Assembly: GCF_900112105.1 (NCBI RefSeq) | Contig: NZ_FOKV01000009.1 | Span: 62,001-126,000 of the forward strand | Source of the DNA: Zunongwangia mangrovi | GTDB taxonomy: Bacteria; Bacteroidota; Bacteroidia; Flavobacteriales; Flavobacteriaceae | DNA length: 64,000 nucleotides | Direction: 5' to 3' | Shown here: piece after piece, positions 10,344 to 15,860 of the stretch | Layout: each line of letters begins with the position of its first letter | How positions within the stretch are numbered: the first letter of the stretch is position 1 | Notes under the pieces: generated by a model | The model's input: the letters and a program-made list of their open reading frames with translations, nothing else | Told to the model about the DNA's origin: nothing | Databases searched by the model: none | Position numbers and translations under genes: made by a program

Positions 10344-12203
10344 TTATACATCTAGATCAAAAGTTGTTCGTAATTTATCCAAAAGCGGATTTTTCTCTTT
10401 CAGCTTATTATATTTTTCTATAGGTGTAAAAACAAATTTTTTCGCTGTCGTTTCATTAACATCGATCACCAATGTGATGGTCGTATTTTTCAATCTGGCT
10501 TTTAGAAATCCCATTAATTTATGCTGACCTCTTTCCAGATCAAGCTTCATAGATTCTGCAGGTAATTCCAGATGAATTTCGTTATCATTTTTTAATGTAG
10601 GAAGATCTGTTTCTAATATTGAAGCAAGGATTTTTTCTCCCCGTTTTTTCAATTTGTGAACATAGTCGTCCCAGGCGGCTTGTAACTGAGTTTCAGTAAA
10701 CTTGCCAGTCATCACTGCTTCACGTTCTGGAGCCTTATCTTTTACCTGGGCTTCCAGTTGTTTTTTCTTACGAATACTAGCTAAAGAAAGTCCGGATACT
10801 CTTTCTGTTTTAGTATCGGTCTCAGCAACTGGATTTGTTTTAGTGGATTCGTTTTGCTGAGGTTGAGGTTGAACTTCTTTTGCCGGTTCTTCTTTAATTT
10901 TATCTTCGGAAGTATTCGGCACTTCTTTACTAAAATACTCCTGATTTGCAGTTGTAGTTTCAGTAGCACAGGTGTCATTTTCTGTACGATTTTCAGCTGA
11001 AGGTTGTTGCGCTTCTTTAGGAGCAGTATTGTTTTGCCCATATTCGTTATTCCTGATGATCGATTTTTCTTCTTTCGAGATCGATTTTGCAGGCTGTTCG
11101 AAGTGAGAAGCAGGAACTATTTTAGGACTGCTGTTTTTTTTTTCTCCGTCGAAAGTGACAGAGGCAATTTGCATTAAGCAGAGTTCAACTAAAAGCCGTT
11201 GATTTCGGCTGGTCTTGTATTTTAAATCACATTCATTAGCAAGGTCGATTGCCTGAAGCAAAAATTGTTGCGAAGTCTTTTGAGATTGTTCAAAATACTT
11301 GGTTTTTGTTTGTTCTCCAACTTCTAAAAGCTGAATGGTTCGTTGATCTTTACAAACCAGCAAATCTCTAAAATGTGAAGCTAAACCAGCCACAAAATGA
11401 TGACCATCAAATCCATTAGAAAGGATGTCGTTAAACAATACCAGTAGTTGCGGAATGTTATTATCCAGAAGTAAATCTGTTACCTGCATGTAGGTATCGT
11501 AATCTAAGACATTCAGGTTTTCTGTAACCGCCTGTCGTGTTAAATCTTTTCCACTAAAACTTACTACACGATCGTAGATAGAAAGGGCATCACGCATGGC
11601 ACCATCTGCCTTTTGTGCAATGATCTGCAGGGCATCCTCTTCAGCATTAACACCTTCCTGTTCCGCAATATATTTTAAATATTCTTTTGCATCAGTTACG
11701 GTAATCCTTTTAAAATCAAATATCTGGCAACGCGAAAGAATGGTAGGAATGATCTTGTGTTTTTCGGTCGTAGCAAGGATGAAAATCGCATGTTTTGGTG
11801 GCTCTTCTAAGGTTTTAAGAAACGCATTAAAAGCCGAAGTCGATAACATGTGAACCTCGTCAATAATATAGACCTTATAAGTTCCAACTTGTGGAGGAAT
11901 TCTTACCTGATCGATAAGATTACGAATATCATCAACCGAGTTGTTAGAAGCGGCATCAAGCTCAAAAATATTAAAAGCAAAATCTTCATCTGGACTTTGA
12001 GTACCGTCCTGGTTGATCATTTTTGCCAAAATACGGGCACAGGTAGTTTTCCCCACTCCACGGGGACCGGTAAATAAAAGCGCCTGAGCAAGATGATTAT
12101 GAGCAATAGCATTAGCCAAAGTATTGGTAATTGCTTGCTGCCCAACAACATCCTTAAAGGTTTGTGGCCTGTATTTACGCGCCGAAACTACAAAATGCTC
12201 CAT
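10344..12203 (-). CDS. dnaX: DNA polymerase III subunit tau/gamma
   Basis: This clamp-loader ATPase has 619 residues. The AAA+ core carries Walker A GPRGVGKT (46-53), Walker B IIDEVH (113-118) and the sensor region ILATTEKHKIIPTILSRCQ; domain III runs to about residue 350. The usual four-cysteine zinc module between Walker A and ELDAASN is absent and replaced by a short Asp/Glu-rich linker. A low-complexity Glu/Gln/Thr/Lys linker (about 360-490) leads to a C-terminal tau domain. A run of ten As at codons 353-356 is a likely slippage site that would give a gamma form of about 360 residues. It is co-transcribed with miaE. Confidence 0.95.
   Translation of the reverse strand: MEHFVVSARKYRPQTFKDVVGQQAITNTLANAIAHNHLAQALLFTGPRGVGKTTCARILAKMINQDGTQSPDEDFAFNIFELDAASNNSVDDIRNLIDQVRIPPQVGTYKVYIIDEVHMLSTSAFNAFLKTLEEPPKHAIFILATTEKHKIIPTILSRCQIFDFKRITVTDAKEYLKYIAEQEGVNAEEDALQIIAQKADGAMRDALSIYDRVVSFSGKDLTRQAVTENLNVLDYDTYMQVTDLLLDNNIPQLLVLFNDILSNGFDGHHFVAGLASHFRDLLVCKDQRTIQLLEVGEQTKTKYFEQSQKTSQQFLLQAIDLANECDLKYKTSRNQRLLVELCLMQIASVTFDGEKKNSSPKIVPASHFEQPAKSISKEEKSIIRNNEYGQNNTAPKEAQQPSAENRTENDTCATETTTANQEYFSKEVPNTSEDKIKEEPAKEVQPQPQQNESTKTNPVAETDTKTERVSGLSLASIRKKKQLEAQVKDKAPEREAVMTGKFTETQLQAAWDDYVHKLKKRGEKILASILETDLPTLKNDNEIHLELPAESMKLDLERGQHKLMGFLKARLKNTTITLVIDVNETTAKKFVFTPIEKYNKLKEKNPLLDKLRTTFDLDV
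11134..11143 (-). promoter_or_regulatory. A10 slippage site within dnaX
   Basis: On the coding strand a run of ten adenines spans the codons GAA AAA AAA AAC (Glu-Lys-Lys-Asn, about residues 353-356), at the end of domain III. One added A, or a -1 ribosomal shift, gives CAG CAG TCC TAA and stops after three codons. One lost A gives a TAG after five codons. Both alternative frames therefore end at once. By analogy with the A-runs of Thermus and E. coli dnaX, this should produce a short gamma subunit alongside tau. Confidence 0.6.
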
Positions 12204-12645: not shown

Positions 12646-12650
12646 CAGCC

Positions 12651-12966
12651 AAGCAGGTCGGCCCTATCGCTAAGCTCATATTTGCGGCTTGGAGGAAAGT
12701 CCGGACACCGTAGAGCAGCATAGTGGGTAACGCCCACCGGTCGTGAGGCCAGGACAAGTGCAACAGAAAGAATGTACAGGTAATGCTGTAGTGAAACCAG
12801 GTAAACTCTATGCGGTGCAATGCCATGTAAACCAACATTATCAAATTGCTCGTTTGTTGTTGGAGGGTAGGCAGCTAAAGGGCTTTGGTAACAAAGTTCT
12901 CAGATAAATGACAAGGGCATCCTGATGTATTTCAGGGTGAACAGAATCCGGCTTACAGACCTGCTT
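12651..12966 (+). ncRNA. rnpB: RNase P RNA (type A)
   Basis: The catalytic RNA of RNase P, which removes 5' leaders from tRNA precursors. Conserved segments are GGAGGAAAGTCCGGAC (from 12691), GGGTAACGCCC (about 12725-12735), AAGTGCAACAGAAAG (about 12756) and the 3' ATCCGGCTTA (about 12946). The ends pair: AAGCAGGTC at 12651-12659 is complementary to GACCTGCTT at 12958-12966, forming helix P1, and a T-run follows. The 3' end overlaps the last codons of the GH16 gene on the other strand by about 14 bases. Confidence 0.93.
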
Positions 12967-13804
12967 TTTTATATACTCTTACATAATCGATCAAATATTC
13001 CTGCGGAAATATAGCATCATCGATGTCTCCCGCCCATTTACCACCAAGTGCTAGGTTGATAATTAGGAAAAATGGCTTTTTAAAAGGATTGTTTTTAGTA
13101 TCTGCGTCCTCGATCTTAAAGGTGTAATACACATGATCGTCGAACGAAAATTGAATTTTTTCTGAATCCCAGTTCATTCCGTAAACATGAAAATCTTCAG
13201 TAGGCGAGGGGTCTAAACTTAACTGCCCGCCTTCGCTTTTTATAGTTGATCCTTTACCTTGCGGATAATGTACCGTAGCATGAATGGTATATGGATCTTT
13301 CCCCACGAATTCTAAAATATCGATTTCTCCGCTATAAGGCCATTCGATGTCGTGAAAATTAGATCCTAACATCCAAATGGCTGGCCATACGCCTTTTCCC
13401 TGCGGAAGTTTAGCACGTACCTCAATTTTACCAAAATTTAGATCGAATTTTTTATGCGTATGTAGACTGGCTGAAGTGTAAAAGGCCTTTTCTGTATTAT
13501 AACGATAGTTCTGAATATCTGGATCGTATTTCTTATTTCGATATTCTTCTTTTCTGGCAATGATTTTTAGAACATCATCTTTAACGATTGCATTTTTTTT
13601 ACGTTTCGTATAATATTGCTCTTCCAGATTCCGAATAAATCATAGTTCATGAGTCCATTTATCTTTATCGGGTTTGCCGCGATAATCAAACTCGTCATTC
13701 CAAATTAATTCGTATTCCTGAGCATTTATACTCATAGGTAAGAAAGCTAAAATTGTAATTAAAAAATAAAGAATATTAGCTTCAGTATTTTTATTCTTCT
13801 TCAC
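12953..13804 (-). pseudogene. GH16 beta-glucanase (laminarinase-like), interrupted by TGA
   Basis: This secreted family 16 glycoside hydrolase, of the type that cuts beta-1,3-glucans, would have 283 residues. The N-terminus is a signal peptide ending SINAQ, followed by YELIWNDEFDY. The catalytic motif GEIDILE (ExDxxE) and the strand GKIEVRAKLPQGKGVWPAIW are intact. A single in-frame TGA at 13640-13642 follows KWTHEL; the frame then resumes with FIRNLEEQYYT, where the family has Gly, so GGA to TGA is likely. The best start is a GTG at 13804, overlapping the rsmD stop. It is a recent nonsense pseudogene unless the base is an error; no shift is needed. Confidence 0.85.
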
Positions 13805-15831: not shown

Positions 15832-15860
15832 CAAATCTACAATTTTTTTTTATTCGCAAA
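15832..15860 (-). promoter_or_regulatory. promoter for the 15.8-13 kb minus-strand operon
   Basis: On the minus strand TTTG (15860-15857) and TAGATTTG (15839-15832) are separated by 17 bases and fit the Bacteroidota -33/-7 pattern. Transcription would begin near 15825, about 33 bases before the ATG at 15792. Confidence 0.65.

Follow-up and report, generated by a model that had tools for sequence, protein, structure and literature searches.

A conserved A10 run in dnaX of Zunongwangia mangrovi and its relatives as a probable programmed transcriptional slippage site

The dnaX gene of Zunongwangia mangrovi, found in the 64,000-nucleotide stretch of DNA that was analyzed (hereafter the window), carries ten consecutive adenines on its coding strand, directly after domain III and before the linker. 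With a probability of roughly 85%, we interpret this A10 run as a programmed transcriptional slippage site of the kind described for Thermus dnaX. A preceding sequence-only reading had proposed a probable tau/gamma slippage site at this position, and the proposal is supported by conservation of the run among relatives, by stops in both alternative frames and by the choice of the codons that create these stops.

The run and the products predicted from dnaX

The features discussed below are as follows, in window coordinates.

10344..12203, minus strand: dnaX, for DNA polymerase III subunit gamma/tau, 619 codons with a zero-frame tau
11144..12203, minus strand: gamma part, AAA+ ATPase with lid and domain III (TIGR02397, Pfam gamma3)
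11134..11143, minus strand: A10 run, candidate slippage site, codons 354-357 (gAA AAA AAA AAc, E K K N)
11122..11124, minus strand: TAA, met after one additional A or a -1 ribosomal shift (360-aa gamma)
11117..11119, minus strand: TAG, met after loss of one A (361 aa) or gain of two (362 aa)
10344..11133, minus strand: tau-only part, low-complexity linker and C-terminal domain

The gene is a single uninterrupted frame of 619 codons with no two-ORF split, and the tau predicted from this zero frame has 619 aa and a mass of 70.0 kDa. PRK14971 (NCBIfam, DnaX gamma/tau) spans its full length (E 9.1e-219, 728 bits against a cut-off of 685), TIGR02397 (NCBIfam) matches residues 6-346 and the Pfam gamma-3 domain (gamma3) matches residues 222-349 with a score barely above its cut-off. 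The latter two matches end just before the run, in agreement with its initial placement at the boundary of domain III and the linker. No other gene in the 4.13-Mb genome scores above the TIGR02397 cut-off. By analogy with tau of E. coli, polymerase and helicase are the expected binding partners of the tau-only part.

The coordinates first read for the run, 11134-11143 on the coding strand, are confirmed, and its codons, initially numbered 353-356, are in fact 354-357, one codon further on. One additional A, or a -1 ribosomal shift, leads through three codons (CAG CAG TCC) to TAA and a predicted product of 360 aa and 40.7 kDa; loss of one A leads through five codons to TAG and a product of 361 aa. 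Both stops had been described at these same distances. An RNase P RNA of class A (Rfam RF00010, 208 bits) lies just upstream of dnaX on the opposite strand (window 12650-12971, plus strand), and RNase P RNA likewise adjoins dnaX in one relative (L015). Scanning the window for tRNAs gave no hit.

Under the proposed mechanism, RNA polymerase would slip on the hybrid formed by the A-run RNA and the T-run template, giving dnaX mRNAs of several run lengths. Those of template length or with three additional adenines would yield tau. Those with one or two additional adenines, or with one fewer, would meet a stop within 3-5 codons and yield gamma of 360-362 aa, which would keep the ATPase and domain III and would be without the linker and the C-terminal domain. 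Both proteins would then enter the clamp loader, a step that we infer, as we do slippage itself and its rate.

Conservation of the run and of the stops around it

We gathered dnaX loci from the genus, family, order, class and phylum, with one genome per species, together with named records. The named set consisted of the best 80 of 593 and bears labels of Flavobacteriaceae and other Bacteroidota, the phylum being inferred from these labels. Removal of loci with identical sequence gave an untargeted sample of 339. A targeted follow-up, which contributes 78 of the final loci, covered four genera of the family, each with a member that needs one A less for tau, and a Chlorobia-like class (a further class of the phylum, its name being our guess; best 30 of 41 loci). 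With one locus that has no site (L375) and four duplicates (L357, L364, L404 and L408) left out, 417 distinct loci remained. The phylum sample is skewed toward closer matches, as it was drawn from part of the best matches among 292 matching genomes, and the loci share ancestry, so that counts are not independent events.

An alignment of relatives, proposed in the sequence-only reading as a check of conservation and carried out in part, places a run of A9 to A13 at the domain III/linker boundary in 374 of the 417 distinct loci of the phylum. A10 is by far the commonest length (292 loci), followed by A11 (39), A9 (36), A12 (5) and A13 (2), and 43 loci have no run of nine or more. All six members of the genus, the window species and five others, carry A10. 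By sample, the run is present in 166 of 168 loci from the family, 18 of 18 from the order, 33 of 37 from the class, 17 of 38 from the rest of the phylum and 62 of 78 from the named set; in the Chlorobia-like class it is found in 30 of 30 (the best 30 of 41). Its position is equally constant: a domain III motif was found in 160 of 166 family loci, and in 152 of these the run begins 12 codons past it.

Loci that lack the run tend to be higher in GC than those that carry it (mean 0.52 vs 0.38), with 23 of the 43 above 0.5, and in them gamma may be unnecessary or arise by another route. Ten run-less loci of the named set (L305, L314, L316, L321, L326, L333, L334, L346, L351 and L353) bear the labels Bacteroides, Bacteroidaceae, Prevotella and some Bacteroidales labels, and other Bacteroidales loci retain the run. 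Two loci of family f1 are also of note. In L175, dnaX is split at the same place without an A-run and has GGAAAAGTAA there instead, and in L182 the longest run is only A8. Another frameshift mechanism or solution may act in these two.

Stops in the alternative frames were scored in 295 run-bearing loci with one long frame, with pseudo-sites taken from the same linkers as a background. Both non-tau frames stop within 10 codons of the run in 281 of these 295 loci (95%), compared to 29% at the pseudo-sites of the same genes. When a single locus was kept per family label, both stops were close in 23 of 28, against 22% at pseudo-sites. The initial judgement that chance is an unlikely source of the run and its paired stops is thereby strengthened, given that nine or more adenines are retained in most loci and that both stops lie nearer than the same-gene null.

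Codon choice around the run was assessed in 170 zero-frame loci of the family and named sets, with the background taken from the same genes; Fisher p values are nominal here, as the loci are related. An Ile-Ile pair lies within 12 codons of the run in 91 of 170 loci, and its first Ile is spelled ATA in 89 of these 91, compared to 108 of 611 Ile-Ile pairs at other positions of these genes (nominal p 3e-54). No other Ile codon makes a minus-frame stop when a second Ile follows. Similarly, AAT AGN is the spelling of Asn-Ser in 41 of 55 cases where the pair ends the run and in 73 of 400 where it lies elsewhere (nominal p 1e-16); this spelling places TAG, the plus-frame stop, directly after a run bearing one more A. 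By these counts, synonymous codons that create alternative-frame stops are preferred in both frames and the stops are kept by selection. In many loci of family f1 the tau linker starts with a (F/Y)IIP(A/P)S-like motif that is conserved for a linker, and part of this conservation may stem from the hidden minus-frame stop.

Frame of tau among relatives and the source of the frame change

The frame in which tau continues after the run (its polarity) differs among relatives. Of the 339 untargeted loci, 215 have a zero-frame tau, 74 need one additional A (or two fewer) for it and 6 need one less (or two more); the remainder comprises 43 loci without a run and one truncated locus (L037), which has no polarity. 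This sample overweights the family, yet it is fairer for polarity than the full set. In all 417 loci, targeted ones included, 255 are zero-frame, 98 are of the +1 kind and 20 of the -1 kind, giving 118 split genes, and these counts are not a fair sample because 78 loci were targeted.

Polarity tends to be shared within genera. All 17 loci of one genus (g36) are of the +1 kind, as are 4 of 5 named Flavobacterium loci, the fifth having A9 and being of the -1 kind. The -1 kind prevails in g178 (14 of 19 loci, the other five zero-frame) and in g185 (2 of 2). It also occurs as a lone state in 1 of 3 loci of g244 and 1 of 30 of g37, and these two lone states may be assembly errors. Polarity was mapped onto a tree built with FastTree from the gamma part of 418 loci, the final 417 plus one duplicate, and a minimum of 51 changes was counted among 374 loci. 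Polarity still changes at least 28 times over 348 loci once 26 leaves of lone polarity are dropped as a guard against homopolymer assembly errors. The same tree contains a block of 22 loci with uniform polarity.

The split genes allow the fate of the tau-specific tail to be followed in its own frame. Differences among the tails of g36 at codon positions 1, 2 and 3 are 0.31, 0.25 and 0.51, with an amino-acid identity of 0.60, and those of the -1 set of 13 from g178 are 0.35, 0.24 and 0.59. Such a pattern is the one expected under purifying selection, and the split tails thus look selected in their own frame. Over the 200 codons that follow the run, the zero frame of the g36 loci contains 10-18 stops. 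We also considered, and rejected, an internal start for the tail: no ATG occurs among the first 10 tail codons in any of 121 split loci (3 of them duplicates), and the first in-frame ATG, the only start codon considered, lies at a median of 103 codons into the tail and within 30 codons in 13 of 121. Taken together, the selected tails, the lack of an early ATG and the zero-frame stops indicate that tau is very probably still produced in split genes, and solely via a change of frame.

Two sources of such a change, slippage by the polymerase and a ribosomal -1 shift, had been left side by side in the sequence-only reading; the comparison among relatives speaks for the first and against the second. 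A ribosomal -1 frameshift of the E. coli dnaX type, acting on A_AAA_AAC inside the run, would also yield gamma, and we regard it as an unlikely source. The in-phase A_AAA_AAN heptamer on which it would depend is present in 295 of 295 loci, as is unavoidable in a run of nine or more, and takes the form A_AAA_AAC in the window gene. A -1 shift amounts to one more A and could in this way serve gamma in zero-frame genes and tau in the 98 loci of the +1 kind. It would not serve the 20 loci that need one A less for tau, where a -1 shift meets a stop a few codons on, and this class is common to loci within two genera (g178 and g185). A site of seven bases is enough for the ribosome, yet the longest run is A7 or A8 in only 3 of 417 loci. 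The minus-frame stop is likewise favored though useless to a -1 shift, a preference that makes sense only if mRNAs with one A less or two more exist.

Stimulators of ribosomal frameshifting were looked for on both sides of the run. A GGAG motif is found no more than 6 nt from the run in 110 of 166 family loci, but in only 7 of 67 loci from the order, class and phylum; it leaves no spacer and also encodes conserved residues. A Shine-Dalgarno (SD) core within 20 nt upstream was found in 19 of 295 loci (6%), compared to 5% of control windows, giving no average signal, and Bacteroidia ribosomes have been reported to be blind to SD sequences (PMC9976891). Downstream folding showed no average enrichment in the 295 loci (MFE -7.7 vs -8.4 in control windows, mean z -0.3, against a null of 20 mononucleotide shuffles per locus), and 21 of the 295 have strong folds with z below -2, slightly above the few per cent expected. 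Searches against Rfam gave three sub-threshold matches only in the dnaX region at a lax threshold, none of them across the run. At the gathering threshold, nothing covered the run in 10 run-bearing loci, with RNase P as the only match, in two, and no match was obtained in 20 of the 43 run-less loci. Polymerase slippage is favored because some lineages need one A less for tau and because no clear ribosomal stimulators are present.

A second alternative, which we consider very unlikely, is that the run persists through drift or solely because the protein needs lysines at the domain boundary, and that no second product is made. The commonest peptide start over the run is indeed Glu-Lys-Lys, and AAA is the usual Lys codon of these genes (7767 of 10542 outside the run). 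The five codons across the run nevertheless encode 107 different peptides, and Lys-Lys pairs at other positions of these 215 zero-frame genes are spelled AAAAAA in 462 of 916 cases, with a run of nine or more adenines elsewhere in the ORF in only 5 of the 215. Furthermore, tau is out of frame in 118 of 417 loci and there would therefore be no tau in them unless the frame changes. Least probable of all is a contingency locus acting at the DNA level, through replication slippage and phase variation rather than programmed slippage in expression: long homopolymers mutate and the tree holds at least 28 polarity changes after lone cases are dropped, but large clades are uniform (17 of 17 in g36 and the 22-locus block) and an off state would cost a replication gene its tau or gamma.

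A further-reaching view, on which we are evenly divided, is that RNA polymerase blurs the reading frame at this point of dnaX so strongly that the genomic frame is itself near neutral, with slippage rather than the encoded frame setting tau and gamma throughout the sampled Bacteroidota and the Chlorobia-like class. On the tree, the frame of the C-terminal domain changes at least 28 times, among all three states, and on this view selection would meanwhile keep the run and the stops of the other two frames. The order of zero-frame, +1 and -1 loci (215, 74 and 6 of 339) would then mirror the spectrum of mRNA lengths that is produced by the polymerase.

Known dnaX systems and other A-runs

In E. 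coli, dnaX undergoes -1 ribosomal frameshifting on A_AAA_AAG with the aid of an SD sequence and a stem-loop. The loci described here are alike in the gene, in the gamma/tau outcome and in the similar position of the site. They differ in having no average SD or stem-loop signal, in the homopolymer of A9-A13 and in the occurrence of both shift directions among relatives.

A closer parallel is found in Thermus thermophilus, where transcriptional slippage on an A9 run in dnaX gives rise to gamma from mRNAs of altered length (PMC1088944, PMC5009743). That gene and the window gene share a tau encoded in one ORF, an A-run on the coding strand and close stops in both other frames, and they differ in run length (A9 there, A10 here) and in phylum. 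Heterogeneous mRNA and a 1:1 ratio are features of the Thermus case. Two-ORF dnaX genes have also been found by GeneTack, with A10 in nine of 17, and transcriptional realignment was proposed for the A10 members by likeness to Thermus (PMC3711429). The same authors took different directions of frameshifting among genes of the same function as a sign of transcriptional realignment (PMC3711429). These genes are the same gene with the same kind of A-run and match those relatives that need one more A. The window gene differs from them as a single ORF, 118 of 417 relatives being split. One frameshift direction is reported for dnaX in PMC3711429, and the second, one A less for tau, is present here in 20 of 417 loci. 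Some of the GeneTack A10 species may be Bacteroidota.

Slippage at A9 and two-ORF dnaX genes with A10 are thus already in print, and the window gene adds to them. In the literature covered, which took in PMC3711429 without its supplement, we found no report of a phylum-wide run, of codon selection for both stops or of the -1 polarity. The breadth of the run, the selection on both stops and the switching of frames are the points of most interest here. If our interpretation is correct, a replication gene across a wide range of bacteria depends on stuttering of RNA polymerase. The full-length protein would not lie in one frame in 80 of the 339 untargeted loci, about a quarter, and annotation would therefore split or truncate dnaX there. 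At efficiencies near 50%, a single nucleotide can swap the roles of the two products, for which a 2016 review gives dnaX as an example, and the purpose of gamma in E. coli has long been controversial (PMC5009743). The natural series of runs and polarities would offer a ready-made measure of slippage spectra and a probe of the purpose of gamma.

Few other long A-runs occur in the window and in the genome. The string AAAAAAAAA (A9) has 3 matches in the window, which make up two runs, against 20.7 expected from dinucleotide shuffles, and the sole further run of nine or more is an A9 at 15843-15851 (minus strand). Over the 4.13-Mb genome, runs of ten or more adenines occur at 10 distinct places on either strand (12 overlapping matches), and at only two of these, dnaX and L007, does the run lie within the body of an ORF. 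Four others (L001, L005, L006 and L441) have an ORF over the run only through a TTG start or on the opposite strand, the L006 run lying within a 63-aa TTG ORF and the L005 run opposite a 103-aa ORF; the remaining four have no ORF of 60 aa across the run.

The second ORF-borne run (L007, also recorded as L449; contig C17, 58232-58241, minus strand) is an A10 near codon 75 of a 200-aa orphan ORF. It was considered as a second slippage gene and rejected, with a relative in none of 12 other genomes searched. Two further runs, on contigs C8 and C25, can be placed in an ORF only by assuming a TTG start. In L001 an A11 abuts an ATG, and in L441 an A10 closely precedes the ATG of a SusD-like gene, whose product, judged by eye, we take to be a SusD-type lipoprotein. 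At these two places, slippage in leaders is possible.
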